DNA of 33,417 bases from Acidobacteriota bacterium (GTDB lineage Bacteria; Acidobacteriota; JAAYUB01), in contig JAFGRT010000183.1 of assembly GCA_016935015.1 (NCBI GenBank), positions 1-33,417 on the forward strand, written 5' to 3'. The notes below the pieces were generated by a model. That model did not search any database, had not been told where the DNA came from, and worked only from the letters and a program-made list of their open reading frames with translations. A program made the translations under genes and the position numbers. Positions 697 through 33,082 of the stretch are shown here, one piece after another (the stretch's first letter is position 1; every line of letters starts with the position of its first letter).

Positions 697-1302
697 ATGA
701 GAATACTCATCCTTGCAGGGGTCATATGCATCGGTGTAACCACGGCCCCGGCCGCCATCACCGGCTCGGCTCATGACTTCAGCGCCCGGGGCTGGAACAG
801 CTCCCATGAAATCTGTATCGTTTGCCACACCCCCCATCATGCCGATACGTCCGTGGCTGATTCGCCATTGTGGAATCACGAGGTAACAACAGCGCTTTAT
901 ACCATTTACAGTTCACCGACGATGCAGGCAACCACCGGACAGCCTGACGGAGTTTCCAAGCTGTGCCTCAGCTGCCACGATGGCACGGTGGCCCTGGACA
1001 GTTTCGGTGGCACCAGCGGTACGGTGCACATCGGCGGGCGATATGATCTCGGAACTGATCTGAGCGGGGATCACCCGATTTCCTTCACGTATGACACCTC
1101 CCTCGCCACCAGCGACGGCGAACTGGCTGATCCGGCCACCGCCCTCTCCGGCCTTGGCGGCACGATCCAGAACGATCTGCTGTATGGCGGCCGGCTGGAG
1201 TGTTCGTCCTGTCACGACGTGCACAACGCATATAACCATAACAATCTGCTGGTTATCGAAAATGCAGCCAGTGCGTTGTGTCTGACGTGTCACACGAAGT
1301 AA
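697..1302 (+). CDS. OmcE-like tetraheme c-type cytochrome, exported
   Basis: This 201-residue protein has an N-terminal signal peptide (about residues 1-19, ending near APAA) and four CxxCH heme-binding motifs starting at C40, C90, C169 and C195. Between motifs 2 and 3 is DLSGDHPISF, whose H126 is a likely axial ligand. From memory of the family, the spacing, GSAHDF near the mature N-terminus, CHTPH and the DHP block resemble OmcE, the tetraheme cytochrome that polymerises into filaments in Geobacter. Filament formation here is inferred. The start is fixed by TGGAGG at 687-692, four bases before ATG. It is followed by a strong hairpin and then an NHL pseudogene. A paralogue at 2550-3176 and the N-terminal part of the cytochrome at 7921-9531 share the same block order. 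It could instead be a soluble periplasmic carrier. Confidence 0.85.
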   Translation: MRILILAGVICIGVTTAPAAITGSAHDFSARGWNSSHEICIVCHTPHHADTSVADSPLWNHEVTTALYTIYSSPTMQATTGQPDGVSKLCLSCHDGTVALDSFGGTSGTVHIGGRYDLGTDLSGDHPISFTYDTSLATSDGELADPATALSGLGGTIQNDLLYGGRLECSSCHDVHNAYNHNNLLVIENAASALCLTCHTK

Positions 1303-1313
1303 TATGGAACGGT

Positions 1314-1361
1314 ACAGGGAAGGTTGTCGAACATTCCCCAAAGACGACCTTCCCTGTTTTT
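1314..1361 (+). terminator. Rho-independent terminator or attenuator after first cytochrome
   Basis: Arms 1314-1328 and 1343-1357 pair over 15 positions with one G-U wobble, enclosing a 14-base loop and followed by a run of five T (1357-1361). It begins 12 bases after the cytochrome stop and precedes the NHL pseudogene. Partial read-through could once have set a high cytochrome to NHL ratio. Confidence 0.85.
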
Positions 1362-1400
1362 CACATCAGAATATCATCACTGTCTGATCATGCGGCATAA

Positions 1401-1924
1401 ATGCAGAATTGTGGCCTTCGTTCCGTCAATGGCGGGAGTTTGTCTGACCGGAACCATGCCTGATACTGGCCCGACACTCCACAACTAGCGACCTCTCTCC
1501 TGCTCTCTCCCCGGCTCCCCAATCAGCCATGCGTTCAGTTTCTGACGTCCATTGTCGACACCGCCTTCGTAACCCCGGCCGAAAGTGGCTTTTTCCGCTT
1601 TATATTTGGCGAAGTCAAGGAAAGGGAAAACGTTCGCCCGATCATCAAACCATATGGTGTCGCCATACATGGCGGCCGCCTCTACGTTTGCGACCTCCGC
1701 GGCGGCCTGATCATGCTGGATATGCAGAATCAGGCGAGCTCCCGGGCGGGGACCACCGCGCCAGGCATGCTCCAGAAACCGTGAATCTAGACATCTATCG
1801 GGACGTGGCATTGTATGTGGCCGACATCGGGGGTGAACAGATCCTGGCATCGGATCGTGACGGCACATTCCTCCGGGCCTATGGCCGCCCGGATGAATTC
1901 CAGCCCGCCGATGGGCTGATATGA
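1401..1924 (+). pseudogene. Decayed NHL-repeat protein gene, paralogue of the gene at 3269-4345
   Basis: Translation from ATG 1401 aligns with the N-terminal half of the intact NHL protein at 3269. The codon for Q in the shared QFL motif lies 45 codons after the ATG in both copies. Matching blocks include SGFFRF.FG, KPYGVAIH.GRLYVCDLR, VNLDI and VADIG.EQIL. Lesions are a TGA at codon 21 (1461-1463), a one-base deletion near 1780 that shifts the frame just before VNLDI, and TGA at 1922-1924 where the intact gene has TGG. After about 1930 no homology is visible, so the last blades of the propeller are gone. The distance from cytochrome stop to this gene (98 bases) matches the second copy (92 bases), so cytochrome and NHL gene were probably duplicated together. 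Confidence 0.85.
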
Positions 1925-2427
1925 CCGAGCATCCGGAGTGTCATTCGTTCTTCTTTCAGAAGTATTTTGTGTTTCGCATTGGAGTAAAATGTAGTCAAGA
2001 TTCAATATCTGCCCTGAAAATATCTACTTAGCATAGTTTGTCAACAATTAATACTGCGAGAAATGTTCCCGTATCATGAACAAGATTGAACCGCCTCAAA
2101 CAAGGCATCCCATCGAACCGATGGCCCGGTCATCATCCCTATCATTGCCTGTCAATAGTCGTGAAGTTGGTCGTCACGGCCTTCGGCAATACCGCGGACA
2201 CCTCCCGCCGCCCGGCTTGCCGGTGGAAAATCCCGGGTGCCAACGCCAGACTCACGCTGGTACTTTATCCTGGAAAACCGGTTCCGGAAGTTTGTCTGCC
2301 TCCCCCGCCGAACGGACTCGCTTGCACAAAATTCCATCTTGAATAACTATCACGAACAGTTTCAATGGCTTGGATGTGACAGACGTCGCCTCATCCGTCG
2401 CAATTACAATAATATTGAGTCTTTTCC

Positions 2428-2455
2428 TTGCGTTCTGTGTAAGAGACCGTATAAT
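2428..2455 (+). promoter_or_regulatory. Candidate promoter of second small cytochrome
   Basis: TTGCGT (2428-2433) and a perfect TATAAT (2450-2455) are 16 bases apart, the same spacing as at the first cytochrome, and lie 95 bases before the ATG at 2550. The -35 match is weak, so this is a prediction. Confidence 0.4.
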
Positions 2456-2511
2456 CTAGATTGACTAATACAGATTTATTGTAATCAGGGCATATCTTGA
2501 GGGTTCGCCAA

Positions 2512-2526
2512 ACAGAATGATTCTGT
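2512..2526. promoter_or_regulatory. Perfect 15-base palindrome in leader of second cytochrome
   Basis: ACAGAATGATTCTGT is a perfect inverted repeat (7-base arms, 1-base centre) in the 5' leader, 23 bases before the start codon. It could be a repressor operator or a short RNA hairpin. No matching copy was seen upstream of the first cytochrome. Confidence 0.4.
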
Positions 2527-2549
2527 ATACATATTTTTAAGAAGGAGCA

Positions 2550-3176
2550 ATGCATAAATTCGTCCTTGCCTGTCTCATTTTATGTTGTGCCTGCCTGGCT
2601 CTTGGTCAGGCCGGCATCGCGGGCTCGGCCCATGATTTCAGTGATGAAACGTGGAGTCATGGGCAAATATGCCTGCCCTGCCACACACCTCACAACGCGA
2701 ATACTACCGTTGCCGAGGCGCCACTCTGGAACCATGAATTGACTGCTGTGGCGACATACACTCTTTACTCCACAACCTCGCTCGACGCGACAGTAGGGCA
2801 GCCGAACGGGACCTCCAGACTATGCCTGAGTTGTCATGACGGTACAGTAGCTCTTGAGAATTTCGGTGGCGTAACAAATGGTACAGCTTTTGTTACAGGA
2901 ACAATATTGGTCGGAAATGGGGCCAATTTAAGCGGGGACCACCCTGTCTCTTTCACCTATGATGCCGCGCTGGCAGCAACTGACGGCGGTCTTCATGATC
3001 CCACGGTTACTGCTTCCGGCTTGATTGGAGGAGGAACCATCTCGGACGATATGCTCTCAGGCGGAACCATGCAATCATCCTCCTGCCACGAGGTTCACAA
3101 CGAATGTGGACATAACTCGCTGCTGATACTAGATAACGGTGGCAGTGCATTATGCCTGACGTGTCACGACAAATAG
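2550..3176 (+). CDS. OmcE-like small cytochrome with one degenerate heme motif (SxxCH)
   Basis: This 208-residue exported protein is a paralogue of the cytochrome at 697, sharing GSAHDFS, CHTPH, LWNHE, CLSCHDGTVAL, LSGDHP and CLTCH. Canonical CxxCH motifs begin at C41, C92 and C202. The third expected motif reads SSSCH (S176 to H180) where the paralogue has CSSCH, so the first thioether cysteine is missing (codon TCA at 3075-3077) while C179 and H180 remain. An extra cysteine, C186, lies six residues after H180. The signal sequence (about 1-20) is rich in cysteine. AAGGAG (2542-2547) is only two bases from the ATG, unusually close. The gene is visibly less GC-rich than its downstream neighbours. 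It may form a filament with three or four hemes, or be a diverging paralogue. Confidence 0.85.
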   Translation: MHKFVLACLILCCACLALGQAGIAGSAHDFSDETWSHGQICLPCHTPHNANTTVAEAPLWNHELTAVATYTLYSTTSLDATVGQPNGTSRLCLSCHDGTVALENFGGVTNGTAFVTGTILVGNGANLSGDHPVSFTYDAALAATDGGLHDPTVTASGLIGGGTISDDMLSGGTMQSSSCHEVHNECGHNSLLILDNGGSALCLTCHDK

Positions 3177-3188
3177 CCTGATTGTTGT

Positions 3189-3233
3189 AGAGAGACCGGA
3201 ACAGTTTCCGCCGACAATTACAGGTCTCTCTTT
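3189..3233 (+). terminator. Hairpin between second cytochrome and NHL gene (weak terminator/attenuator)
   Basis: AGAGAGACC (3189-3197) pairs perfectly with GGTCTCTCT (3223-3231) across a 25-base loop that holds a smaller GGAA/TTCC stem. Only three T residues follow, so termination may be partial. This would let some transcripts continue into the conduit operon starting at 3269. Confidence 0.55.
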
Positions 3234-3268
3234 CCGTCTAACTCAATTCAGAATCCATCCGGTGCTAA

Positions 3269-4345
3269 ATGAAAAGATTGCTGTTGTTTTCAGGATTTGT
3301 TCTGTTCCTGGTCTTTGTGGGGAATATCACTTCCACACTATTCGGAAGCGACGAGGTGGACGAGCCACTGTTCTATCCGGCCTTGCCCGTGGAACCCCGG
3401 ATCCAGTTTCTAGCCACCATCAGCGACACCGGATTCGTCCTGCCGGAGAAAAGCGGATTCTTCCGGTTCGTGTTCGGCGATGAAAAAGAAAAAGAGAAAA
3501 TCCTGCCCATCGTCAAGCCCTACGGGGTGGCCATCCATGACGGACGGCTCTATGTATGCGACCTGCGCAGCGGCCTGCTGGTCCTGAACCTGGAAAATGA
3601 CAGTTTCTCCTTCCTGGGTACGGCAGAACCAGGCCGCCTGAAAAAAGCGGTGAATCTGGATATCGCCCGTAACGGCGATGTCTTTGTGGCCGACATCGGG
3701 CGCGAACAGATCCTGTCGTTCGACAAGAAAGGCAACTTTCAGAGAGCGTATGGGAAAACCGGGGATTTCCGTCCCAGCGATGTAAAAATCTGGCGATCCC
3801 GCCTCTATGTGGCGGATATGGAACACAATGAAATCGTCATCCTGAATGTTCGCGACGGCAAGGAGATCGCGCGGCTGGGCGGGAAGGGCAAGGAAGAGGG
3901 GAAACTCCTGCACCCCAGCAACATCGCGCTGGACAGTTTGGGCAACCTGTACGTCTCCGAGACCACCAACTTCCGCATCTCGGTGTTCGGGCAGGACGGC
4001 TCGTTCGTCCGGACCTTCGGCCAGATCGGCCGGCGCCCCGGTGATTTCGCCCGCAACAAGGGGATCGCCCTCGACCGGGGCGGCAATTTCTGGGTGGTGG
4101 ATTCGGCGTTTGAAAATGTGCAGATTTTCAATCCGCAGGGTGAACTCCTGCTCTTTTTTCTGGGTTCCGGCCAGGGCCGCGGCAACATCAACCTGCCAGC
4201 CGACATCTGGATCGACTACGAAAACATTGACTATTTCCGGAAATACGCCGACCCGAGATTTGACATCAAGTGCCTGGTGTTTGTCACATCCCAGTTCGGA
4301 CCCAACAAAATCAATGTGTACGCCCATGGATCCTATGCCCGCTGA
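3269..4345 (+). CDS. NHL-repeat beta-propeller protein, exported (first gene of conduit operon)
   Basis: This 358-residue protein has a hydrophobic N-terminus (about residues 3-25), then an N-terminal signature ending PRIQFL, then five or six NHL-type blades. Examples are PYGVAIHDGRLYVCD, NGDVFVADIG, PSNIALDSLGNLYVS and GNFWVVD. NHL propellers are binding scaffolds and no catalytic residues are evident. NHL-repeat genes are reported beside outer-membrane and nanowire cytochrome genes in Geobacter, so a role in cytochrome assembly, export or surface placement is a reasonable inference. The start has no clear Shine-Dalgarno, but the aligned ATG of the 1401 pseudogene supports it. The stop TGA shares its A with the next ATG (TGATG). 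The C-terminus (from about residue 310) departs from the repeat pattern. Confidence 0.85.
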   Translation: MKRLLLFSGFVLFLVFVGNITSTLFGSDEVDEPLFYPALPVEPRIQFLATISDTGFVLPEKSGFFRFVFGDEKEKEKILPIVKPYGVAIHDGRLYVCDLRSGLLVLNLENDSFSFLGTAEPGRLKKAVNLDIARNGDVFVADIGREQILSFDKKGNFQRAYGKTGDFRPSDVKIWRSRLYVADMEHNEIVILNVRDGKEIARLGGKGKEEGKLLHPSNIALDSLGNLYVSETTNFRISVFGQDGSFVRTFGQIGRRPGDFARNKGIALDRGGNFWVVDSAFENVQIFNPQGELLLFFLGSGQGRGNINLPADIWIDYENIDYFRKYADPRFDIKCLVFVTSQFGPNKINVYAHGSYAR

Positions 4346-4944
4346 TGGTCCCGGCTATGTTCAGATATTGGAAGACCATTCTGCTACTCATCCCCGGATG
4401 CCTCTGGCTGCTCGCCGGGTGCGCCCCGAACACCCGCCACAAGGTATTGCGCACCGTATTTGACGGCGTTCCCCCGCCCCGGCCAGCCGCCGCGACGTCC
4501 CCGGCCGCGACGCCGGCACCGACGGATCAGGCGGGCACCGCGGACCCCGCCTCGTTACGGCCCACGGGCAGCGTGCACCAGCCCTATGCCGACCGGGAAT
4601 GCAATTCCTGTCACGGCACCCGGCTGTCCAACCAGCTGATCCTGCCGCCCGACCAGCTGTGCCAGGAATGCCATGACCCGGCCGAGTTTTCAGCCCCCTG
4701 GCTGCACGGACCGGTGGCCGGCGGCGGCTGTTCGTCCTGTCACCTGCCCCACCGCTCCGAAAAGGCCCACCTGTTGCGGAACGGCGGCGACAATTTCTGC
4801 CTCGACTGCCATGACCCGCGACAGGGCCTAATGGATCCGGACAGCCCGGCCCACCGGCAGCCGAACGGCTACGACTGCCTCGACTGCCACACCGCCCACG
4901 GCGGGGCCACCCGATTTCTGCTGAAAAGCGGGAGGGCCTCTTGA
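4345..4944 (+). CDS. Pentaheme c-type cytochrome lipoprotein of porin-cytochrome conduit
   Basis: This is a 199-residue protein from ATG 4345, which overlaps the preceding stop. A hydrophobic stretch ends in LLAGC, so C26 is the likely lipid anchor. A proline/alanine-rich linker (about 42-70) follows, then five CxxCH motifs at C86, C106, C129, C152 and C178. Several are followed by the HxPH/HDP patterns of doubled-CxxCH cytochromes. In Mtr/Omb-type conduits a multiheme cytochrome passes electrons through a beta-barrel; the barrel is the very next gene here. Whether the lipid anchor sits on the inner or outer leaflet of the outer membrane cannot be read from the sequence. An in-frame upstream methionine (4270) exists, but it would overlap the NHL gene by 76 bases and break the lipoprotein signal. 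Confidence 0.85.
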   Translation: MVPAMFRYWKTILLLIPGCLWLLAGCAPNTRHKVLRTVFDGVPPPRPAAATSPAATPAPTDQAGTADPASLRPTGSVHQPYADRECNSCHGTRLSNQLILPPDQLCQECHDPAEFSAPWLHGPVAGGGCSSCHLPHRSEKAHLLRNGGDNFCLDCHDPRQGLMDPDSPAHRQPNGYDCLDCHTAHGGATRFLLKSGRAS

Positions 4945-6908
4945 GCAGACGCCCGCTGCCGCCCCTCGCCGTTCTCGGCCTGCTTTTCATTATCGGCAGC
5001 GGTCTGGCTGGCACTCTCCGCGCCGACTCGTGGGATGAATCGGATGACATCCGCTTCTTTCGATTCCGCTTCGATGAGGGCGCCCTGGGCGTGGCCTACG
5101 AACTCAACGATGATGAACGTCGTTCCAGCGGCAACCTGGATTTCTTTCTGCATAACCGCGACTGGGTCTATTTCCTTGATTTGGACGGCCAGGCGGCCGT
5201 GTATCATCCGAAGTTCCTGGAAATCGACGTCAAGGGCCGGTTCAGCATCCACCAGGACCGCACGGAGCGCCGGCAGGACATCACTTCGGAAAACATCTAC
5301 AATCCCCAGTACACCCTCCGCGCCCGTTTGCTAAAGAACCATCCTTACAGCCTTGAAGTGTTCGACACGCGGCGCTTCGACTCGGTCCTCTACGATTTCG
5401 TGGACCGGGTCTTCGTGGACTCCGAATCGCGCGGCGCCACCTTTTATCTGCGCCGAGACAATTTCCCCCTGCGGCTGTCCTATATGTCCAACAAGGTGTT
5501 GGGCACCAACGCCGACCGGGAATATTACAATTACTGCAACCGCTTCGCGACAGTGGACCTGTCTCCCATCCATATCGGCGCCAGCGAGTCCGACTTCCGC
5601 TTCCAGCATCGGGAGTACTTCGACCATGTTCGGGAAACCCAGTATTTTCACAACGACCTGCACACCACCAACCACTGGCGGATCGGCGGCGATGCGCGCA
5701 AGGAGCTGCTCAGCCGTTTTATGGTCAATTCCCAGACCGGTTCCTTCCACCGGGATCTGCTGGACTGGAACGAGCGCTTCCAGTGGCGGCACACGCCCGC
5801 CTTCCGCACCTTCTACTCGGCCGGCTTCCGGCGGGTGGAGGTGGAAGACTCCAGCTCCGACGTCGTCACCGGCGGTTTCGGATTTCTGCACGATCTGTAC
5901 GAGAGCCTGACCACCACCTTCCGCGGCGACCTGTTCCGCGAAAAGCGCACTCCGGCCGAGTCGCTCCGCCAGCAGTACACGCTGGCTTTCACCTACCGCA
6001 AGAAGGTGCCGGGCGGTCGGCTGGGCGCCGGCTACCAGCTGGCCTACAACCGCCTCAACCAGGACTCCACGGGCGGGTCCGGCATCATCATCGGCGAGGT
6101 AGTGCGCTTCGACGGTTTCCTGCCCGTCGTGTTGCGATTCGCCCAGGCCTTGCCGGAAAGCGTCGTGGTATATGAATCCGACTCCGGTTTCGTTTTCGAC
6201 GAAGGGTTCGATTACGAGATCATCCTCGCCGAGGGCCGCCTGCTGCTGGCCCGGCTGCCCGGCAGCCGCATTCCGCCGGACGGGCCGGTCCTGGTGGATT
6301 ACCGGTACCTGCTGTCCCCCGAATATCTCAACGTCACCTGGAGCAGCGGTGCCAACGTGCAGTACACCTGGCGCCACCTGGTCACCGTCTACTACCGCCG
6401 CTTCCGACTGGACCAGACCATCACTGCCGCGACGGCGCCGCCCCCCGAAATGGATATCGACAGTGACACCGTGGGCGCCCGGCTGCGCTGGCGCTTTTTC
6501 AACACCACGTTCGAGGTGCAGGACTATGAATCGACGCCACTGAGCTACACCCAGACCCGCGCCGACGCCGGGATCAGCTTCAACTGGTGGCGGCGGCTCC
6601 GTTTCGGCATCAACGGCTTTGTCATGAACCTGAACTACCGCTCCGATTTCGAGCCGCGTCGCTACCGCGGCGGCAATGTGCGGGTGGAGTGGCTGGCCGG
6701 CCGTGACCTGCGCCTGTTCGGCGACGGCTACCTGTACCACGACCGCTTCGCCGACAACGACCGCCGTTCGTGGCTGGCCCGGGCCGGCCTCCAATACCGC
6801 CTGCGCCGGTTTGCCCTGCAGGCTGATTACTCCTACGGGCACCGGATGTTCAATGATGTCCTGGATTTTTCCCGCTACTTTGCCGTATCCTTGCGGAGGA
6901 CCTTCTGA
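4941..6908 (+). CDS. Outer-membrane beta-barrel (porin component of conduit)
   Basis: This is a 655-residue protein starting at TTG 4941; the start is supported by GGGAGG at 4930-4936 and the 4-base overlap with the previous stop. It has a signal peptide (about 1-28, cleavage near LRA). Long alternating polar/aromatic segments follow and the protein ends in phenylalanine, as many outer-membrane barrels do for BAM recognition. Around residues 385-460 is a non-barrel insert (FVFDEGFDYEI to VLVDYRYL) that looks like a small beta domain between strands. It lies between a multiheme lipoprotein and large cytochromes, so it is inferred to be the sheath through which electrons cross the outer membrane. 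I see no MtrB-type CxxC near the N-terminus, so it is not an obvious MtrB orthologue. No plug or TonB box was seen. Confidence 0.8.
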   Translation: MSRRPLPPLAVLGLLFIIGSGLAGTLRADSWDESDDIRFFRFRFDEGALGVAYELNDDERRSSGNLDFFLHNRDWVYFLDLDGQAAVYHPKFLEIDVKGRFSIHQDRTERRQDITSENIYNPQYTLRARLLKNHPYSLEVFDTRRFDSVLYDFVDRVFVDSESRGATFYLRRDNFPLRLSYMSNKVLGTNADREYYNYCNRFATVDLSPIHIGASESDFRFQHREYFDHVRETQYFHNDLHTTNHWRIGGDARKELLSRFMVNSQTGSFHRDLLDWNERFQWRHTPAFRTFYSAGFRRVEVEDSSSDVVTGGFGFLHDLYESLTTTFRGDLFREKRTPAESLRQQYTLAFTYRKKVPGGRLGAGYQLAYNRLNQDSTGGSGIIIGEVVRFDGFLPVVLRFAQALPESVVVYESDSGFVFDEGFDYEIILAEGRLLLARLPGSRIPPDGPVLVDYRYLLSPEYLNVTWSSGANVQYTWRHLVTVYYRRFRLDQTITAATAPPPEMDIDSDTVGARLRWRFFNTTFEVQDYESTPLSYTQTRADAGISFNWWRRLRFGINGFVMNLNYRSDFEPRRYRGGNVRVEWLAGRDLRLFGDGYLYHDRFADNDRRSWLARAGLQYRLRRFALQADYSYGHRMFNDVLDFSRYFAVSLRRTF

Positions 6909-7924
6909 TGATGGCGCCACGACAACTATACCTTCTTCTCCTGCTGTTGGCGGCAGGGCCCGGATCCTTCCTCGCCGGTGATGTGAAGCCACCGAGTCCT
7001 GTCTGGCCGCCGCCGCCCGACACGCCACGCATCGCCTGGCAGGAGGCGTGGGATCAGGCCACCCTGTTCAGCGTGCATGACGGCTTCTTTGACCGGATCG
7101 GCCGCTTCCTGTTCGGCAAAAAGGAGGTCCCGTTCGAAACGCCTTACGCCCTGTGCCTCACCGGCGACCGGGTGGGCATCCTTGACTCCGGGACGGCCAC
7201 CCTGTGGCTGGTGGACCGCGCCGGCGGCGACATCCGGCCCGCCGAAACGGGCCGGGCCGGCCCCATGGCATCCCCCGTGGGCCTCACCGCCGACGCCGCC
7301 GGACGCATGTACGTCACCGATTCCGGACGGCGCCGGATCCTGATCTTCGACACAGCCGGTGAATTCACCGGCTTTCTCGGCCAGACGGTGGCCTGGGAAC
7401 GGCCGGTGGGGATCGCCTGCGATGCGGCCGGCGACCGCTTCTGGGTATCGGACAGCCAGCGCCACCAGATCGTCTGCCTGGACGCCGCCGGGCGGCAGAC
7501 GGGCGTCATCGGCCGGCGCGGCAACGGGCCCGGCCAATTCAATTTTCCCGGCCAGCTGGCTCTCGACGGGCGCGGCCGGCTCTACGTGGTGGACAGCCTG
7601 AATTTCCGCATCCAGGTGTTTTCACCCGGCGGCGACTGCCTGCTGGCCTTCGGCACCGCCGGCGACCGGCCCGGCTCCTTCGCCCGGCCGCGCGGCATCG
7701 CCGTCAGCCGCCACGGACATGTTTACGTCAGCGACGCCCTGTCCGACGTGGTGCAGGTGTTCGATGACCAGGGCCGCCTGCTCATGGATTTCGGCCGGCC
7801 CGGCCGCGGGCCGGGGGAATTCGCCATGCCGGCCGGCCTCGCCGTCGACGGTGACGACCGGATCTACGTGGCCGATCACCGGAACCACCGCGTTCAGGTG
7901 TTCCGGTTTCTGGGAGAGCAATGA
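6908..7924 (+). CDS. NHL-repeat beta-propeller protein, six blades, exported
   Basis: This is a 338-residue protein with signal peptide (about 1-24) and a proline-rich start to the mature chain (WPPPPDTPRIAW). That matches the PxxPRI signature of the NHL protein at 3269. Six repeats follow, each of the form P-x-G-[IL]-A-x-D...G-R-[LI]-Y-V-x-D...[IV]-x-[VI]-F; examples are GRLYVVDSLNFRIQVF and DRIYVADHRNHRVQVF. The regular six-fold pattern suggests a closed propeller. GGAGGA (6895-6900) precedes ATG 6908, which overlaps the barrel stop; a second ATG follows at once (6911). Its place between the barrel and the largest OmcE-like cytochrome suggests a scaffold or assembly role rather than enzymatic activity. 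Confidence 0.85.
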   Translation: MMAPRQLYLLLLLLAAGPGSFLAGDVKPPSPVWPPPPDTPRIAWQEAWDQATLFSVHDGFFDRIGRFLFGKKEVPFETPYALCLTGDRVGILDSGTATLWLVDRAGGDIRPAETGRAGPMASPVGLTADAAGRMYVTDSGRRRILIFDTAGEFTGFLGQTVAWERPVGIACDAAGDRFWVSDSQRHQIVCLDAAGRQTGVIGRRGNGPGQFNFPGQLALDGRGRLYVVDSLNFRIQVFSPGGDCLLAFGTAGDRPGSFARPRGIAVSRHGHVYVSDALSDVVQVFDDQGRLLMDFGRPGRGPGEFAMPAGLAVDGDDRIYVADHRNHRVQVFRFLGEQ

Positions 7925-9531
7925 ACCGCACACGTTTCATATGCCGTTCACTTTTTGCCTGCCTGGCCGTCCTGCTGGTCGCGGGGCCGGCCTACGCCCG
8001 CATCGAGGGCACCGCCCATGATCTGCGCAGCGGCTCCGGCGGCGACGTGTGCCGGTTCTGCCATGCGCCCCACCTGACCAGCGGCCAGCGGGCCCTCTGG
8101 AGCCGCGGTGCCAACAACCGGGTGTACACGCCCTACACCAGCGCCACCATGCGCGCCCTGCCCGGTCAGCCCGACGGCAGCTCCCGGCTCTGCCTCAGCT
8201 GCCACGATGGCACCATCGCCCCCGGACAGCCCGGGCCCGGCTCGGCCTGGAACAATTTTTCGCTATCCGAGCGGGCCAACCTGTCCACGGATCTGAGCGA
8301 CGATCACCCGGTCTCCATTCACCTGCGCGCCGGCGGCGGGGTCGTCCGGCCGCCCGCCCAGGCACCCGTTCGCCTCGACGCCCAGGGCAAGGTCCAGTGC
8401 ACCAGTTGCCACGACGCCCACGACGACCGTTACGATGGCTTTCTGGTGGACTCAAATGAGAGCTCCCGGCTCTGCCTGTACTGCCATGATCCCGACGGCT
8501 GGGACCTGAACATCCACTCCGTCTCCAACGCCACGTTCGCCCGGGAGAATCCCTGGACCACCCCCTATCGGACCGTCATGGAGAACGCCTGCGAAAACTG
8601 TCACCGTCCTCATCAGGCCGGGCGGCGGCAAACGCTGCTGAACCGGGTGACCGTCAACGACACCTGTCTCGCCTGCCATGACGGCAACTTTGGTCTGGCG
8701 GGTAACATCGCGCCGGCCTTCACCCGGATATCGAGTCACGCCGCCATTCACTGCGACGATTGCCACGCCTCCCACTCCATGATGCGGACCTCCGGTCATG
8801 TGCCGCCCGACGTTCCGGCCGCCCTGGGCTGGATCGACGGCGAGACCGTCGACGGGATTCCCCGGGAAAAGGCCGACTTCGGCTACGAGGTCTGCTTCAA
8901 GTGCCACGGCGAGAACCAGCCCCGCCGCCCCCTGATCCGGCGGCAGGTGATGACGGGCGCCGTCAGCCGCTCGTTCGCCACGGTCAACCCGTCATTCCAC
9001 CCGGTGGTCAGCCCCGGGCGCAGCCAGAACGCACCCAGTCTCTACAACGGCTGGACGGTGACCAGCTACGTGCAATGCACCGACTGTCACGGCGACGACG
9101 AGGGGACCGGCACCCGCGGCGCCCACGGTTCCAACTTCCGGCCGCTGCTGGCCCGCAACTACGAAACGGCCGACTTCACCATGGAGTCGGCCGCCGCCTA
9201 TGCGCTCTGCTATGCCTGCCACGACCGGAACAGCATCCTCGACGACCGCAGTTTCCGCGGCCATGTCCTGCACATCGTGGATCAGAACGCACCCTGCTCG
9301 GCCTGTCACGATCCCCACGGTGTGGCCCAGCAGGCCGGCGCCACCCAGCTGAACAACCCTCACCTCATCAATTTCGACACCGGCATCGTGCTGCCCGAGG
9401 ATTCCACCGGCCGGCTGGAATTCCAGGACGACGGCGAGCAGATGGGCCGCTGCACCCTGAAATGCCACGGGGATAATCACCTGGAAGAGAAATATGATGC
9501 ATTTACCATAAAACTACGGTGGAGACGATGA
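7921..9531 (+). CDS. Dodecaheme-type c cytochrome with N-terminal OmcE-like module
   Basis: This 536-residue exported protein (signal peptide about 1-27) has eleven CxxCH motifs at C44, C91, C160, C185, C224, C249, C278, C325, C386, C430 and C459. A twelfth, CTLKCH at C511, has three residues between the cysteines. Residues about 28-195 copy the small-cytochrome pattern: GTAHDL, CHAPH, GQPDGSSRLCLSCHDGT, LSDDHPVS, CTSCHDAH and LCLYCH. The remaining eight motifs form a separate C-terminal part. The protein thus looks like an OmcE-like unit fused to an octaheme domain, and could link the conduit to a filament of the small cytochromes (inference). The start ATG overlaps the preceding stop (ATGA) and follows GGAGAG. 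There is no clear lipobox, so it is probably secreted or held by protein contacts. Confidence 0.85.
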   Translation: MNRTRFICRSLFACLAVLLVAGPAYARIEGTAHDLRSGSGGDVCRFCHAPHLTSGQRALWSRGANNRVYTPYTSATMRALPGQPDGSSRLCLSCHDGTIAPGQPGPGSAWNNFSLSERANLSTDLSDDHPVSIHLRAGGGVVRPPAQAPVRLDAQGKVQCTSCHDAHDDRYDGFLVDSNESSRLCLYCHDPDGWDLNIHSVSNATFARENPWTTPYRTVMENACENCHRPHQAGRRQTLLNRVTVNDTCLACHDGNFGLAGNIAPAFTRISSHAAIHCDDCHASHSMMRTSGHVPPDVPAALGWIDGETVDGIPREKADFGYEVCFKCHGENQPRRPLIRRQVMTGAVSRSFATVNPSFHPVVSPGRSQNAPSLYNGWTVTSYVQCTDCHGDDEGTGTRGAHGSNFRPLLARNYETADFTMESAAAYALCYACHDRNSILDDRSFRGHVLHIVDQNAPCSACHDPHGVAQQAGATQLNNPHLINFDTGIVLPEDSTGRLEFQDDGEQMGRCTLKCHGDNHLEEKYDAFTIKLRWRR

Positions 9532-10832
9532 AGAAAAATTTCGGTCTGATCTGTATCGCCATCATTGGCATGTCATGCTGGTCGCTGGCCCAGTTCGAGG
9601 GAGAGTGCGGCCAGTCCGGCTGCCATGACACCCTGCTGCAGGGCCGCAGCGTCCACTCGGCCGCCGCGGACGACTGCGCCACGTGCCACGAGGTGACCGA
9701 CGCCGACAGCCACGAGTTCAAGCTGGCCGACGACGAGCCCGCCCTGTGCTTCATGTGCCATGGCGAGGACGAGGTGACGGCGGGCAAGAACCGCCACATG
9801 GCCCTGGAGAGCGGCTGCACCGCCTGCCACGACCCCCATGCCGGCAAGGCCGGGCATCTGCTCAAGAGCGGGGAGGGCGGGTCCGTCTGCTTCGACTGTC
9901 ACAGCAAGTACACCAAGGAATTCGTCCACGGCCCGGCGGCGGTGGCTTCCTGCACCGCCTGTCACGTGCCCCACGCCTCGGACCGCCGCGCCCTGCAGCG
10001 CCAGGCCCAGCCCGACCTCTGTTTCCGCTGTCACGGCCCCCTCCAGGCCGAGCACGAGCAGGCCAAACATATCCATTACCCCGTGGAGGACGGCTGTACC
10101 GAGTGCCATTCACCCCACGACGCCTCCCGGGAATACCTTCTGGCGAAGGGGGTTCCGGAACTGTGCGTCACCTGTCATGACGACAAGCTGCCGGGCGATG
10201 ATGAGAGCGTGGCCTCGGTCCACGAGATCATCCGGCGCGACCGGTCCTGCGTGGCCTGCCACTCGCCCCATTTCAGCCCCAACAGCGGCCTGCTGGCCAA
10301 GGCGTCACCCGATCTCTGCTTCTCCTGCCATGACCGCGAGATCACCACCGGGCGGGGCACCATCCAGGACATCGCCACGACGGTGCGGCAGGCTGAGTTC
10401 GCCCACGATCCCGTGGCCAGCGGCTGCGACGGCTGCCACGAGCCTCATTTCTCCGCCAACGGCCGGCTGCTCACCGAACGATCCGCCACCGATTATTACG
10501 TCTCCTACAGCGAGGAGGCGTTCGGCCTGTGCTTCCAGTGCCACGACGCCGCGGCCTTCGCCAGCGAGAAGGTCATCGCCGAGACCGGCTTCCGCGACGG
10601 CAACCGCAATCTCCATTTTGTGCACGTGAACAAGGAGCGGAAAGGACGGAACTGTTTTTTCTGCCATAATGTGCACGGTGCTTCCCGCGAGCACCTGCTG
10701 CGGGAGAGCGTCCGCTTCGGCACCTGGGACCTGCCGCTGAACTACCAGTCCACGCCGACGGGTGGCGCCTGCACGCCCGGCTGTCACAAGATGTACCGCT
10801 ATGAGAACCGGCCGGCGGAAGAGGAACTGTAA
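9528..10832 (+). CDS. Large multiheme c-type cytochrome (13 CxxCH plus CX4CH and CX3CH)
   Basis: From ATG 9528 the protein is 434 residues with a signal peptide (about 1-21, ending SLA). Thirteen CxxCH motifs begin at C50, C74, C97, C121, C142, C165, C190, C213, C241, C264, C300, C335 and C376. Two unusual motifs flank them: CGQSGCH (C27, four-residue gap) and CTPGCH (C415, three-residue gap). If all bind heme there are 15, about one per 29 residues. Repeating CxxCH..PH pairs place it in the doubled-CxxCH group of periplasmic or outer-surface cytochromes. A GTG nine bases upstream (9519) is possible, but GGTGGAG at 9517-9523 fits ATG 9528, which overlaps the previous stop. As the last conduit gene it may be the periplasmic donor or the outer acceptor; the sequence does not decide. 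Confidence 0.85.
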   Translation: MKKNFGLICIAIIGMSCWSLAQFEGECGQSGCHDTLLQGRSVHSAAADDCATCHEVTDADSHEFKLADDEPALCFMCHGEDEVTAGKNRHMALESGCTACHDPHAGKAGHLLKSGEGGSVCFDCHSKYTKEFVHGPAAVASCTACHVPHASDRRALQRQAQPDLCFRCHGPLQAEHEQAKHIHYPVEDGCTECHSPHDASREYLLAKGVPELCVTCHDDKLPGDDESVASVHEIIRRDRSCVACHSPHFSPNSGLLAKASPDLCFSCHDREITTGRGTIQDIATTVRQAEFAHDPVASGCDGCHEPHFSANGRLLTERSATDYYVSYSEEAFGLCFQCHDAAAFASEKVIAETGFRDGNRNLHFVHVNKERKGRNCFFCHNVHGASREHLLRESVRFGTWDLPLNYQSTPTGGACTPGCHKMYRYENRPAEEEL

Positions 10833-20714: not shown

Positions 20715-21851
20715 ATGGCCCTGGCGGATGCAGAACCATCTTCACTTGTCCTGCGGCCGGCCGCACCGGCCGACATACCGGAGCTGATCCGTCTGGAATA
20801 CGCCTGCTTTGACAGTGACCGCCTGACGGCCCGTCGTTTCCACCACCTCATCACCCGTGGCCACGCCGCCTGCCTGGTACTGGACGGCGGAACGCACCTG
20901 GCGGGATATATCCTGCTGCTGTTCCGGAGCGGCATCTCTCTGGCCCGGCTCTATTCGGTGGCCGTGGATCCGCGCCACCAGGGCCGCGGGCTCTCCCGAC
21001 GTCTCATGACCGCCGGCGAGGAGGAGGCCCGGCGCCGCGAGTGCGCCTACATCCGTCTCGAAGTGCGACCGGACAACACGCCGGCCATCGCCCTGTACAA
21101 AAAACTGGGCTATCGCGAATTCGGACTGTTCCCCGACTACTACGAGGATCATACCGCCGCCCTGCGCATGGAAAAATGGATTTCACCGGCGGTCCATCCG
21201 CCGGTGACCCACGTTCCCTATTACGCCCAAAACTCCGAGTTCACGTGTGGGCCGGCGGCATTGATGATGGCCATGAAATGCATCGATCCCGGATTGAACC
21301 TGGACCGGCGTCTCGAGCTGCGAATCTGGCGCGAGGCCAACACGGTGTACATGACCTCCGGCCACAGTGGCTGCAGTCCGCCTGGTCTGGCCCTGGCGGC
21401 ATGGCGGCGTGGTTTCGGCGTGGAGCTTTTCCTCAACGACGATGGCCCCTTCTTTCTGGACGGTGTCCGCAGCGAGGACAAGAAAGAGGTCATTCGGCTG
21501 GTTCACGAGGACTTCCTGGCGGAAATCGCCGAAACGGATATCGCTATCTATTTCGCCTGCCTGACCGTGGCCGATCTGGAAAAAACCTTCCAGTCGGGAT
21601 CGGTACCGCTCGTTCTGATCAGCTCTTATCGCATCTATCGCGAAAAATTTCCGCACTGGGTGGTGATCACCGGCTTCGATTCCCGCTTCGTTTTCGTACA
21701 TGATCCTTATGTGGACGTCATGGAGGAGAAAACGGTGACGGATAGTTACAACCTCCCCATTCTGCGACACGAATTCGAACGGATGGCCCGCTACGGCAAG
21801 AGCCAGCACCAGGCCACCCTCATCCTGCAACACCGAAAGGAAACACCATGA
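20715..21851 (+). CDS. GNAT acetyltransferase fused to peptidase C39-like domain
   Basis: This is a 378-residue protein in two parts. Residues about 10-155 are a RimI-type GNAT domain with the acetyl-CoA loop VDPRHQGRGLSRRLM and a C-terminal ALYKKLGYREFG motif. Residues about 160-370 are a papain-like C39 family domain (DUF3335 type). Its candidate catalytic residues are Q172 and C178 (QNSEFTCGPAAL), H314 (FPHWVVITG) and D330 (VHDPY). No signal peptide or transporter segment is present, so it acts in the cytoplasm. The next gene, with a 4-base overlap, is a RimK-like ligase. This gene pairing is known in Proteobacteria and was proposed by comparative genomics to make or modify peptides; the substrate is unknown. 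GGAG precedes the ATG by eight bases. Confidence 0.85.
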   Translation: MALADAEPSSLVLRPAAPADIPELIRLEYACFDSDRLTARRFHHLITRGHAACLVLDGGTHLAGYILLLFRSGISLARLYSVAVDPRHQGRGLSRRLMTAGEEEARRRECAYIRLEVRPDNTPAIALYKKLGYREFGLFPDYYEDHTAALRMEKWISPAVHPPVTHVPYYAQNSEFTCGPAALMMAMKCIDPGLNLDRRLELRIWREANTVYMTSGHSGCSPPGLALAAWRRGFGVELFLNDDGPFFLDGVRSEDKKEVIRLVHEDFLAEIAETDIAIYFACLTVADLEKTFQSGSVPLVLISSYRIYREKFPHWVVITGFDSRFVFVHDPYVDVMEEKTVTDSYNLPILRHEFERMARYGKSQHQATLILQHRKETP

Positions 21852-23308
21852 GCCAGCAGGTACTCATCGTGCAACGAGCCGGTGACCTGAAGTGGGCCTC
21901 CGCCGCCTACCGGGTGGTGACAGCCCGCGAATACATCGAGCAGGCGGAGTCGTTCCGTTCCAAAACCCGCGTCATCAACCTTCATCCCAGTTACGAATAC
22001 ATGGGTTACGGCTATTACTGCTCCCTGCTGGCCGAAGCCCGACAGCACCGGGTCATCCCCAGCGTCCGCAACATTTTGGAACTGAGCCAGAAGCGGATGT
22101 ACCGGCCTTACCTGGCCGAGCTGGACGAGTTGCTGCAAAAGAAATTCCACCGCCTGGCCGAGCCGCCCGAAGGCGGATTCACCCTTTACATCTTTTTCGG
22201 GATTGCCGACGACCCCACGTACCAGCAACTGGCCCATCGCATCTTCGAGCTGTTCCGTTTCCCCATTCTGCGGGTGCAGGTCCGCCGGCGGGACACCTTG
22301 CGTCTCCACGCCATCCAGCCGGTCTCCATCGAAAACCTCAGCCAGGAGCAGGATGCCTTTTTCGGCTGGGCCCTGGCCCGGTTTACCCGCACCACCTGGC
22401 AGGATCCCAAGGTCAAGACGGCGGCCCGGTACAGCGTGGCCATCCTGCACGATCCCCGGGAAACCCTGCCCCCCTCCGACCAGCGGACCCTGCAGAAATT
22501 CGTACGCGCCGGCGAGGCCCTCAACCTGGACGTGGCCCTGATCCAGAAAAAGGACCTGCCGCGTTTGCTGGAATTCGACGCCCTTTTCATCCGGGAAACC
22601 ACCGCCATGAACCATCATACCTATCGCTTCGCCCAGCGGGCGCAGCGGGAGGGCATGGTGGTCATCGACGATCCCGTGTCCATCCTGCGCTGCACCAACA
22701 AGGTCTATCTGGCCGAGCTGCTGCGGCTGAACAAAATTCCGACCCCTCGTTCCGAAGTGGTCAGCCGCCGGCGGCTGGGTGAATTGTCCCACCAGCTCCG
22801 TTTTCCCATGGTGCTGAAAATACCCGACAGCTCCTTCTCCCGCGGCGTGTTCAAGGTCGAAACCCTCGGGGAACTGAACACTATCGCCGAAAAGCTGTTT
22901 CACGAATCGGACCTGATCCTGGCCCAGGAGTTCATGTACACCCCCTTCGACTGGCGGGTGGGCGTCCTGAACGGCGAGCCGCTCTTTGTCTGCCAGTATC
23001 ACATGGCCCGCAAGCACTGGCAGATCATCAACCACAAAAGTGACCGCGAGCGCTACGGCAAGTTCCTGACCCTGCCCGTGGCCGAGGCGCCGGCCGAGAT
23101 GGTGGACACCGCCGTGCGCGCGGCGCGGCTCATCGGCGGCGGCCTGTACGGTGTGGATCTCAAGCAGACGGAAGAAGGGGTCTTCGTCATCGAAGTGAAC
23201 GACAATCCCAATATCGATACCGGTGTGGAGGATCAAATCCTCAAGGACGAGCTGTTCGCCCGCATCATGAGGGAGTTTCTGCGCCGCCTGGAGCAGCGTT
23301 CCGGCTGA
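21848..23308 (+). CDS. RimK-family ATP-grasp ligase with RLAN N-terminal domain
   Basis: This is a 486-residue protein. Residues about 1-190 match the N-terminal domain found before RimK-like ATP-grasp proteins (RLAN), and about 200-480 the ATP-grasp fold. ATP-grasp motifs are CTNKVYLAELLRLNKIPTP, FPMVLKIPDSSFSRGVFKV, LILAQEFM, FDWRVGVLNGEPL and the metal site VFVIEVNDNPNID. RimK enzymes join an amino acid, often glutamate, to a carboxyl group with ATP. The ATG overlaps the previous stop (ATGA) after GAAAGGAAAC. With the GNAT-C39 partner this gives acetylation, amide bond formation and amide hydrolysis in one operon. The 3' end is only five bases from the convergent anti-sigma gene. Confidence 0.87.
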   Translation: MSQQVLIVQRAGDLKWASAAYRVVTAREYIEQAESFRSKTRVINLHPSYEYMGYGYYCSLLAEARQHRVIPSVRNILELSQKRMYRPYLAELDELLQKKFHRLAEPPEGGFTLYIFFGIADDPTYQQLAHRIFELFRFPILRVQVRRRDTLRLHAIQPVSIENLSQEQDAFFGWALARFTRTTWQDPKVKTAARYSVAILHDPRETLPPSDQRTLQKFVRAGEALNLDVALIQKKDLPRLLEFDALFIRETTAMNHHTYRFAQRAQREGMVVIDDPVSILRCTNKVYLAELLRLNKIPTPRSEVVSRRRLGELSHQLRFPMVLKIPDSSFSRGVFKVETLGELNTIAEKLFHESDLILAQEFMYTPFDWRVGVLNGEPLFVCQYHMARKHWQIINHKSDRERYGKFLTLPVAEAPAEMVDTAVRAARLIGGGLYGVDLKQTEEGVFVIEVNDNPNIDTGVEDQILKDELFARIMREFLRRLEQRSG

Positions 23309-30278: not shown

Positions 30279-31625
30279 TCAAGGGATTACGGCTTTCGGG
30301 ACCGGTTCTGTTTTGGCCGTCGTCTCCTCGCCGGACGGGACCGGCCGCACGACCCTCAGGTTCAGCTCTTCCAGCCGCTCGAAGATCCGCTCCGCCGGGA
30401 GATTGGCTTCCTCGTAGGTGAAACGCACCGTGTTGGCATCCAGGTCGAATGTCAGATCGATGACGGCACCCTCGAACTGGAAGGCACGGACAATCTGCCG
30501 GCGGGCATACCAGCCCAGCTTCTCCACCACCGCCACTTCCAGGGCGGTGACCCCCATCTGCCGCTCGTAGTCCTGCCAGGCCGCCCGGGACAGCTGAATC
30601 TGCCGTTCGGTCCGCGCGGCCATCTCCGCCCGGTGGGGCGCCAGGGTGACGGCCCGGTAGGCCTGCCGGCCGCTGCCCATGAAGAGCACGGCGATGGTCA
30701 GAGCCAGGGCCACCCAGCCGAAGTTGCGGCCGAGGAACTCGTCCGGTCCCCGCAGATCCAGCCAGAGCAAGGCCATGGCCGCCAGGGCCACGCCGGCGCC
30801 GGCCAGCAGAAGCCCTGCCGAATCCCAGGTGACGGAATTCCAGGGCAGGGTCAGCAGGTTCAGCGGCCCCAGCACCAGCAGCTGCAGGACCGTCGTCCAG
30901 AAGGCCAGGCCGTACCATTTCCGCAGAACTTCGCCGCGACCGAAGCCGGGCAGCTTTTCGCCCAGCCCATAGCCCGCCCGCCGCATGTAGCCGAACAGGA
31001 ACAGTCCCGTCACCGCCAGGGACGCGGCCAGGAAGTGCAGGTAGCGGGGCAGCACGTTGGCCAGGAACATGGCGCTGAAAAAGCCCGAAACGCGCCCCCA
31101 CTCCTCGGGAAAGTGCATCAGGTTGACGTTGGTCAGGAAAATCAGCGGCACGAAGAGCAACAGCACCACGGCCGCCGCCACCAGGGCGATATGCTGTTTT
31201 TTGCGGCCGGCGAATTTGTCCCAGGCGTACTTGTGGGCGTACAGGAGCAGAAAGGCCGCCATCACCAGCGGCACGATGCCCACCCAGAAGTCGCCGGTGA
31301 GGGCGTTGGCCGAATAAAAGTGCACCGTGTACAGCACATTGATGGACAGCAGCGGCGCCACGCCCAGCACCACGGCCAGGCTTTTGTTGACGGTGATGGT
31401 CTGGGCGATCTCCTGCGCCAGCCGGTCGTAGCGCGTGTCGGCCAGCCCTTTGATTTCCGCCCACAGCGTCAGGACCGATCCGCCCAGCATCAGGTTCACG
31501 AACAGTATGTGCAGCAGGAACGACACCACCAGCAGCGCCACCAGCAGCCACTCGGGCAGGGGCAGCGGCAGGGGGATGTCCCGGGGCACCGGCGTGCCCG
31601 ATAGCAGGATCAGGGCCGGGTTCAT
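30279..31625 (-). CDS. Multi-TM membrane protein, probable cytochrome bd-superfamily paralogue (second subunit)
   Basis: This is a 448-residue protein with about nine hydrophobic helices in residues 24-325 and a soluble C-terminal tail of about 120 residues. The first helix (LLHILFVNLMLGG) has a histidine placed as in the heme-binding helix I of CydA. The helices and loops that follow parallel the upstream gene, so the two look like distant paralogues. Its start overlaps the upstream stop (ATGA) and follows AAGGAGGTGCCCC. I see no CxxCH. The tail (FEGAVIDLTFDLDANTVRFTYEE) is not a known domain to me. It would form a heterodimer with the CydA/cytochrome c fusion. Assignment to the bd superfamily rests on pattern matching by eye. 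Confidence 0.65.
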   Translation of the reverse strand: MNPALILLSGTPVPRDIPLPLPLPEWLLVALLVVSFLLHILFVNLMLGGSVLTLWAEIKGLADTRYDRLAQEIAQTITVNKSLAVVLGVAPLLSINVLYTVHFYSANALTGDFWVGIVPLVMAAFLLLYAHKYAWDKFAGRKKQHIALVAAAVVLLLFVPLIFLTNVNLMHFPEEWGRVSGFFSAMFLANVLPRYLHFLAASLAVTGLFLFGYMRRAGYGLGEKLPGFGRGEVLRKWYGLAFWTTVLQLLVLGPLNLLTLPWNSVTWDSAGLLLAGAGVALAAMALLWLDLRGPDEFLGRNFGWVALALTIAVLFMGSGRQAYRAVTLAPHRAEMAARTERQIQLSRAAWQDYERQMGVTALEVAVVEKLGWYARRQIVRAFQFEGAVIDLTFDLDANTVRFTYEEANLPAERIFERLEELNLRVVRPVPSGEETTAKTEPVPKAVIP

Positions 31626-33082
31626 GGGGCACCTCCTTCACCGCGCCGGTTTTCGTCCGTCCGGGCCACCTCCTCATGGGCCACCGCCACACCTTCGTCC
31701 TGGGCGCCCGGCAGGGATTCGTCGGCGTGCTTGTCCATATGGATGATGTAATCGACCAGGGCGTCCAGTTCCGCCGCCGTGCCCGGAAAGGGGGGCATGT
31801 AGAACCAGACGTTGTGCATTTTGGGGATATAGCTTTTCATGGCCGCCGGATCGAGGGTTCGGCCGTCGGACGACATGTCCTTAAACTTCGTGATGACCGA
31901 GTTGACACCCCGCACCGTGTGGCAGCGGCTGCAGGCCAGCATGAACACGTTGCGGCCGGCGGCGACAGTGTTGTCGGCGGTCACGGCCGGCGTGTCCACA
32001 TACGTGGCGTGGGCCAGGAGGCCGTCCCGCCTGTAGAGCGGATAGTCGGCCATCCGCAGGCCGTTGGCGTACATGTAGTCGCCGATGACATAGGGCTTGC
32101 GGATGAATTCGCGGATGCGCTCGAAGGAGCCGAGAAAAACCATCAGGACAATGATGGGCAAAGCCATCACCACGCCGGGCAGCCGGCGCGGCGCCAGGAA
32201 TCCCCACAGGGCGATGATGACGGAGAGGAGGACGGCCACCAGTATAACCGTCAGCAAGGAACTGTGCCAGTCCATGAAGGCCATGGTGCCGACGGCTGTC
32301 GGCAGGTTACCCACCATGGCATCGGGGATGAACAAATAGTAGTAGGCCGCCCCCACGGCGCCCATGGGCGTCCAGACCAGCAGCCACAGGGACGTGAAAG
32401 AAACCAGGGGCCGGCGCGCGTCAGGGGTCCGGCGGGCGAAAAAGGCCAGCAGCAGCAGGGCGAAGGCCCCACCCATCATCATAGCCAGCGGCGTCCGGAA
32501 CAACAGCTGGGGCAGGTACAGGGGGTTGACGAAACCGCTGATGAAGGTCTTGTCCGCCGTCCAGCTGCCGGTGTCCATCATGAAGGCCAGGATGCCGACG
32601 ATGATGGCCATGGTCAGCCAGGAAAAGATCACCAGGGCCGTGCCGAAGCGGATGTGGCGGACTTTGGCCGTCTCCGATTCGCCGGCTTTGCGCCACGTGA
32701 GGAAGTAGATCATGATGAAGACCACTTCCAGGATGAAAATGATCCACTCGGTGAACCAGGCGCCGTAGAAGACGCGGATCAGGCTGCCCAGGGAGGCCGG
32801 GTTGACCAGGGAGGCCGACAGCCAGATCCCCACGCCCGTCATGGCACCCACGGTGGTGGTGATGATGAAGCCGACGAGCATGATCCGTCGGACCACGTCA
32901 TCCCACGTGGCCGCCAGCCCGGGATCGGTGCGACGCTTTCTGAAACCCAGGTATTCGAGGAGAACCACCAGCGGCAGGAATCCCACCGCCAGGGCGTGGT
33001 TCACCAGCACGTGCAGGATGGCGATGGTGGCAATGAGCAGCCGGTTGCCGAAGAAATCCAGGTGAAACAACGGAAAGTCCAT
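31622..33082 (-). CDS. CydA-like membrane subunit fused to C-terminal cytochrome c domain
   Basis: This is a 486-residue protein. Residues 1-320 hold about eight or nine helices aligning with CydA. H24 corresponds to the helix I heme ligand (E. coli H19). The segment AWFTEWIIFILEVVFIMIYFLTW matches the CydA helix with two glutamates, here E112 and E119. TTVGAMTGVGIWLSA matches the GVATG segment. Residues about 370-450 form a class I cytochrome c: CSRCH (384-388) and the methionine block YMPPFPGTAAELDALVDYI (M429). I cannot see the long quinol-binding Q-loop. A bd-type enzyme with cytochrome c may take electrons from c-type donors rather than quinol, or may pass quinol electrons to periplasmic cytochromes. 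GGGAGAG precedes the ATG by nine bases. Confidence 0.75.
   Translation of the reverse strand: MDFPLFHLDFFGNRLLIATIAILHVLVNHALAVGFLPLVVLLEYLGFRKRRTDPGLAATWDDVVRRIMLVGFIITTTVGAMTGVGIWLSASLVNPASLGSLIRVFYGAWFTEWIIFILEVVFIMIYFLTWRKAGESETAKVRHIRFGTALVIFSWLTMAIIVGILAFMMDTGSWTADKTFISGFVNPLYLPQLLFRTPLAMMMGGAFALLLLAFFARRTPDARRPLVSFTSLWLLVWTPMGAVGAAYYYLFIPDAMVGNLPTAVGTMAFMDWHSSLLTVILVAVLLSVIIALWGFLAPRRLPGVVMALPIIVLMVFLGSFERIREFIRKPYVIGDYMYANGLRMADYPLYRRDGLLAHATYVDTPAVTADNTVAAGRNVFMLACSRCHTVRGVNSVITKFKDMSSDGRTLDPAAMKSYIPKMHNVWFYMPPFPGTAAELDALVDYIIHMDKHADESLPGAQDEGVAVAHEEVARTDENRRGEGGAP

Follow-up and report, generated by a model that had tools for sequence, protein, structure and literature searches.

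We analysed a contig of 33,417 nucleotides (JAFGRT010000183.1, contig C210; the window) from the 4.75 Mb, 237-contig draft genome GCA_016935015.1 of an Acidobacteriota bacterium, in which a locus at positions 697-10832 combines genes for relatives of OmcE, the filament-forming cytochrome of Geobacter, with genes for a candidate conduit across the outer membrane. A sequence-only reading had singled out this locus for possible extracellular electron transfer and had listed eight genes on one strand; all eight are there within the boundaries it gave, intact and on the forward strand. They encode two small OmcE-like cytochromes (omcE1 and omcE2), an NHL-repeat protein (NHL1), a pentaheme lipoprotein, a beta-barrel, a second NHL protein (NHL2) and cytochromes with 12 and 15 heme motifs (cyt12 and cyt15). 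That reading had overlooked an NHL pseudogene at 1500-1912, the loss of a heme cysteine in omcE2 and an OmcE-like domain, or head, at the N-terminus of cyt12. Counted as CX2-4CH, the heme motifs of the five cytochromes number 4, 3, 5, 12 and 15 in gene order. From NHL1 through cyt15, neighbouring genes share a few bases at each junction, and strong ribosome-binding sites precede both omcE1 and omcE2. Upstream of omcE1, a promoter-like site on the same strand (TTGATC-16-TATAAT, 592-619) matches the consensus at 10 of 12 positions, a resemblance that is not evidence of function.

OmcE-like proteins of the locus

The two small cytochromes are relatives of OmcE. In phmmer searches, omcE1 (697-1302, four CXXCH motifs) and omcE2 (2550-3176) matched the OmcE filament structure 7tfs over their full length, with expectation values (E) of 4.4e-21 and 4.2e-22, respectively, and a second PDB entry, the 16-chain 9yuq, at 9.5e-27 and 8e-19. 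Four CXXCH motifs and four distal histidines are conserved across 79 filament-type and 84 cyt12 sequences; the distal histidines, at 7tfs-numbered alignment positions 19, 46, 137 and 196, are conserved at 92-100% and present in both omcE1 and omcE2. One OmcE heme takes its ligand histidine from the neighbouring subunit (PMC12954529). The product of omcE1, a candidate filament subunit, is complete, with every heme ligand conserved. The omcE2 product has three CXXCH motifs and reads SSSCH at its third heme motif, the sole member without that cysteine among the 79 filament-type sequences, so that the family assignment made from sequence stands with all heme ligands but one. A new cysteine lies seven residues past that of the third motif; a heme held by a single thioether bond or a recent loss are both possible.

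The proportion of nonsynonymous differences between omcE1 and omcE2 (pN) is well below the synonymous proportion (pS). Because synonymous sites are saturated for a ratio of the two substitution rates (dN/dS), only general purifying selection can be claimed for the copies. The pseudogene between them is frameshifted and truncated, and covers residues 34-171 of NHL1 in two frames at 54-59% identity (tblastn, E = 1.3e-42). This remnant suggests that an omcE-NHL unit was duplicated in tandem where it stood, a scenario that we rejected since omcE1 and omcE2 are not sisters in the tree: omcE2 groups (support 85) with the gene of locus L025 and the second copies of L018 and L027, not with omcE1. Two omcE genes also occur in several other loci (L016, L062, L063, L081, L088 and L093).

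The third OmcE homologue is the head of cyt12 (7921-9531), a protein with 11 CXXCH motifs and one conserved CX3CH that consists of an OmcE domain (residues ~1-190) and an eight-heme C-terminal part. The first ~190 residues match 7tfs at 4.5e-19, and when full-length cyt12 was modelled without templates, its single significant match in the PDB was again OmcE 7tfs (E = 3.5e-5, 30% identity, template modelling (TM) score 0.58 by target length). The cyt12 heads group as a single clade (Shimodaira-Hasegawa-like approximate likelihood ratio test, 99), separate from stand-alone OmcE, in a tree built from 165 sequences. Across 60 cyt12 homologues the 12 motifs and 14 further histidines are invariant, two histidines beyond the needs of 12 bis-histidine hemes. 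The additional domain starts directly past the fourth OmcE heme motif; therefore, one end of the head would be taken up, while a filament subunit could attach to the other. The OmcE-like head may be the new point of this analysis, and the head or the spread of the module may already have been published.

Complete OmcE-like tetraheme genes are also found on four IMG/VR contigs of 166, 536, 181 and 12 kb (L010:4986-5627, L011:4923-5540, L012:4986-5576 and L013:4809-5489, respectively), in each case away from conduit or NHL genes. Some of their neighbours are phage-type (RNA ligase, ribonucleotide reductase, exonuclease), and the genes possibly encode phage-borne nanowire subunits; a search of catalogued phages for OmcE returned no match.

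Candidate conduit and NHL genes

On its own, the barrel gene (4941-6908) gave no sequence match in Pfam, NCBIfam or the PDB; none of 60 relatives matched Pfam, MtrB-type families included, and their profile matched no PDB sequence. Modelled with AlphaFold2 from an alignment of the 60 relatives (predicted local distance difference test (pLDDT) 89.5, predicted TM score 0.79), its product is predicted with high confidence to be an unplugged outer-membrane barrel of ~28 long strands into which a small domain is inserted. Twenty-eight strands correspond to a barrel radius near 25 Å; the protein is thus predicted to be neither plugged nor too narrow for a cytochrome, as its assignment to a conduit had presumed. 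Foldseek matched the model to outer-membrane barrels in general, the top TM-score among the matches listed being that of MtrB (0.46; chain B of the Mtr complex entry 6r2q). A TonB-type transporter was rejected, given that the model is unplugged and that TonB receptors stand lower by TM-score among the matches listed.

Cytochromes that could serve this barrel are encoded on either side of it. The pentaheme lipoprotein (4345-4944; lipobox LLAGC, five CXXCH), a candidate wire inside the barrel, carries MtrA-like repeats and matches 6r2q_A of the Mtr complex at 2.5e-6; cyt15 (9528-10832; 13 CXXCH, one CX4CH and one CX3CH), an MtrA/DmsE-like candidate periplasmic relay, matches the same chain at 3.2e-12 and TIGR03508 with 138 bits, under the family cut-off. 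We take chain A to be MtrA from the entry title, the molecule name printed for it being an odd one. The lipoprotein gene adjoins the barrel gene in 46 of 52 loci, and its heme count varies widely between loci. The lipobox and the MtrA-like repeats support conduit cytochromes on both sides of the membrane, where they would pass electrons across it.

Both NHL proteins are predicted to be exported propellers (NHL1, 3269-4345, PF01436 at 2.4e-14; NHL2, 6908-7924, PF01436 at 1.9e-34), the likely partners of omcE and cyt12, respectively. omcE lies directly before NHL1 in 46 of 56 loci, and NHL2 directly before cyt12 in 67 of 70, overlapping it in 57; a lipobox-like start is found on NHL1 in 43 of 60. 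It is this strict adjacency, together with the frequent lipoprotein signals, that suggests a role of the propellers as assembly factors.

Distribution and genomic context

A genome scan for cyt12 found at least 552 related proteins. The 80 highest-ranking ones, assigned to phyla from record titles, come from Planctomycetota, Verrucomicrobiota, Nitrospirota, Nitrospinota, Bacteroidota, Ignavibacteria, Calditrichota, KSB1, Zixibacteria, Neomarinimicrobiota, Acidobacteriota, Proteobacteria and Desulfobacterota, and with relatives spread so widely we rejected the idea of an Acidobacteriota oddity. Gene content was counted in those named loci retrieved through cyt12 that span 17 kb or more, 46 in all; as these were chosen by cyt12 similarity, the counts describe cyt12-bearing loci and not all OmcE genes. 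Presence was 44 for omcE, NHL1 and barrel alike, 42 for NHL2 and 39 for the lipoprotein; omcE and barrel occur together in 42 of the 46, and omcE, NHL1, barrel, NHL2 and cyt12 all together in 39. The order omcE, NHL, lipoprotein cytochrome, barrel, NHL and 12-heme cytochrome recurs in about a dozen phyla. Given OmcE homology at 1e-19 to 1e-27 and a gene order found again across many phyla, the locus is not a product of chance. The proposal that OmcE relatives and conduit genes are encoded together outside Geobacter is well supported, with the qualification that the module they form is conserved across about a dozen phyla and Uet-like in content (see below).

Among Acidobacteriota, 42 of 396 genomes match at E ≤ 1e-40, some through stand-alone OmcE only; the three other genomes of the host's family gave no match at this threshold and have no cyt12. 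Of 22 Acidobacteriota genomes with cyt12, 16 also encode a stand-alone OmcE, compared with 2 of 38 genomes without cyt12 (p = 6e-8, uncorrected for kinship). The locus of Planctomycetales bacterium ZRK34 (L046) lacks omcE, yet the genome has two OmcE genes elsewhere; together with Desulforhopalus sp. IMCC35007 (L044), it is a named carrier of the module or its cyt12.

Tetranucleotide composition agrees between the module, the contig around it and further contigs from the same genome (correlation 0.91-0.98), and a misbinned contig was rejected on this ground, although the three other family genomes contain nothing close to one flanking gene. Elsewhere in the host genome, homologues of OmcK and OmcL lie at L155:316-3035 on contig C37 (NF041028, 389 bits; NF041027, 475 bits), and L156:4369-13631 on contig C237 encodes in one row a barrel-like protein, an MtrA-like decaheme cytochrome, a NapC-like membrane cytochrome and a 21-CXXCH protein that also carries a cytochrome b561 domain. 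These homologues and the second barrel-cytochrome cluster with its NapC-like protein are consistent with an electroactive life style. Within the window, a pair of multi-spanning membrane proteins on the reverse strand (30279-33082), one with a C-terminal cytochrome c domain, has no NCBIfam match and looks bd-oxidase-like. An unassigned, biosynthetic-looking pair on the forward strand (20715-23308) consists of a GNAT-DUF3335 (C39-like) protein overlapping an RLAN/RimK-like ATP-grasp protein.

Proposed mechanism, alternatives and known systems

We consider it probable that the module serves extracellular electron transfer, with a conduit and an OmcE filament joined through cyt12. In the periplasm, cyt15 would relay electrons to the outer membrane, which they would cross through the pentaheme lipoprotein within the ~28-strand barrel. 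cyt12 would be seated on the barrel outside the cell, and OmcE1 and OmcE2 would polymerise into a heme filament. By mimicking a filament subunit, the cyt12 head could dock the first OmcE and so both anchor the filament and join the two heme chains. Each NHL propeller may be dedicated to the folding, export or docking of the OmcE-domain protein whose gene adjoins its own. More tentatively, and with rather less than even confidence, we propose that OmcE-type nanowires are anchored in the membrane, and connected electrically, through cyt12. This conduit cytochrome, a single orthologous family conserved across about a dozen phyla, would then bring the first filament subunit with it as its own N-terminal domain.

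Several observations weigh against this interpretation. The head is the lowest-confidence part of the cyt12 model (pLDDT 40-60 in places), and a mirror-tree test of co-evolution did not single out the pair of OmcE and cyt12 head. No clear stand-alone OmcE was found in 6 of the 22 cyt12-bearing Acidobacteriota genomes, some of which are incomplete. No known conduit porin is recognisably related to the barrel in sequence, and the resemblance of the barrel model to MtrB is modest. Furthermore, the pentaheme lipoprotein is absent from several gammaproteobacterial versions, so that what fills the barrel must vary.

The same anatomy would fit a module that imports electrons from iron, a cathode or partner cells, as proposed for the undecaheme electron transfer (Uet) pathway in Tenderia. 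The closest described gene set is indeed that of the cathode-oxidising Tenderiales (PMC10734462), whereas the OmcK/OmcL homologues and NapC-like protein of the host are known from reducers; we regard import as possible, if somewhat unlikely. Alternatively, barrel, lipoprotein, NHL proteins and cyt12 might form a machine that secretes and assembles the OmcE filament, with electrons supplied through the other candidate conduits of the host. The strict pairing of NHL genes with OmcE-domain genes would suit such a machine, as would the osc operon of OmcS, which is proposed to encode folding and secretion proteins (PMC13194489). However, lipoprotein, cyt12 and cyt15 together carry 32 heme motifs, with ligands conserved one by one in cyt12, which exceeds the needs of a pure export machine and makes this explanation unlikely; assembly and electron supply could also coexist.

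Filament formation itself is assigned through a family defined by sequence in which few members have solved filaments, and omcE2 is short of one heme cysteine, so the module could be a short-range porin-cytochrome conduit with OmcE-like monomers or oligomers on cyt12 and no long filaments. We hold this to be improbable: nearly all members conserve the full OmcE ligand set, including the interface-crossing histidine, and of the two PDB entries in the family 7tfs is a filament and 9yuq has 16 chains. The pseudogene, the cysteine loss in omcE2 and the three family genomes lacking cyt12 might point to a locus that, in this genome, is in decay or a recent acquisition and perhaps not fully functional. 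We regard this as very unlikely, given that all other frames are intact and overlapping with ribosome-binding sites, omcE1 is complete, pN is well below pS and the composition of the locus resembles the rest of the genome.

A 2025 review counts among the open questions how cytochrome nanowires are anchored in the membrane, where electrons enter them and how they are secreted (PMC12307469). In about a dozen phyla, the compact set of genes described here would couple a filament of the OmcE type to a conduit across the membrane, and one of its proteins, cyt12, carries both kinds of domain. If cyt12 is the anchor, the base of a cytochrome nanowire would be identified and anchoring could be tested by deleting a single domain, also outside Geobacter since named carrier strains exist. 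The module could moreover serve as a marker for likely electroactive Acidobacteriota, Planctomycetota, Verrucomicrobiota, Bacteroidota and Nitrospirota.

The closest described gene content is that of Uet, found in Tenderiales and some Gallionella (PMC10734462), which likewise clusters a tetraheme extracellular cytochrome, a beta-barrel porin, two NHL proteins and a cytochrome of 11-12 motifs. The comparison follows the published gene description, Tenderia not being among the fetched loci. The prolyl isomerase UetB, the triheme UetDEG and the tetratricopeptide repeat protein UetF have no counterpart within 697-10832, the only interval searched, and the module has the pentaheme lipoprotein and the 15-motif MtrA-like cytochrome instead; we therefore describe it as working like Uet and do not file it as Uet. 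A proteobacterial locus (L088) has two trihemes alongside a barrel, NHL genes and a cyt12 orthologue.

The G. sulfurreducens OmcE filament (7tfs) shares sequence family, heme motifs and distal histidines with the proteins of the window. Unlike in the module, the literature consulted mentions no barrel or NHL gene near Geobacter omcE (GSU0618), which lies close to ppcA (GSU0612), the cytochrome biogenesis genes GSU0613-0614 and the cytochromes GSU0615/0616. An earlier case of a cassette that unites conduit and filament cytochromes is OetABI with OmcS/OmcX in sulfate-reducing partners of anaerobic methanotrophic archaea (ANME) (PMC10553843); its filaments are of the OmcS/OmcX type, not OmcE, and NHL genes are not reported there. 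As outlined in PMC13194489 and PMC12977616, the osc operon likewise encodes a filament cytochrome with dedicated partner proteins, for a filament family (OmcS) different from OmcE. MtrCAB and the Geobacter porin-cytochrome complexes share with the module a large barrel with MtrA-like cytochromes. In contrast to them, the module has a barrel without a sequence-family match and no homologue of MtrC or OmcB, and would place an OmcE-headed cytochrome in the outer position.

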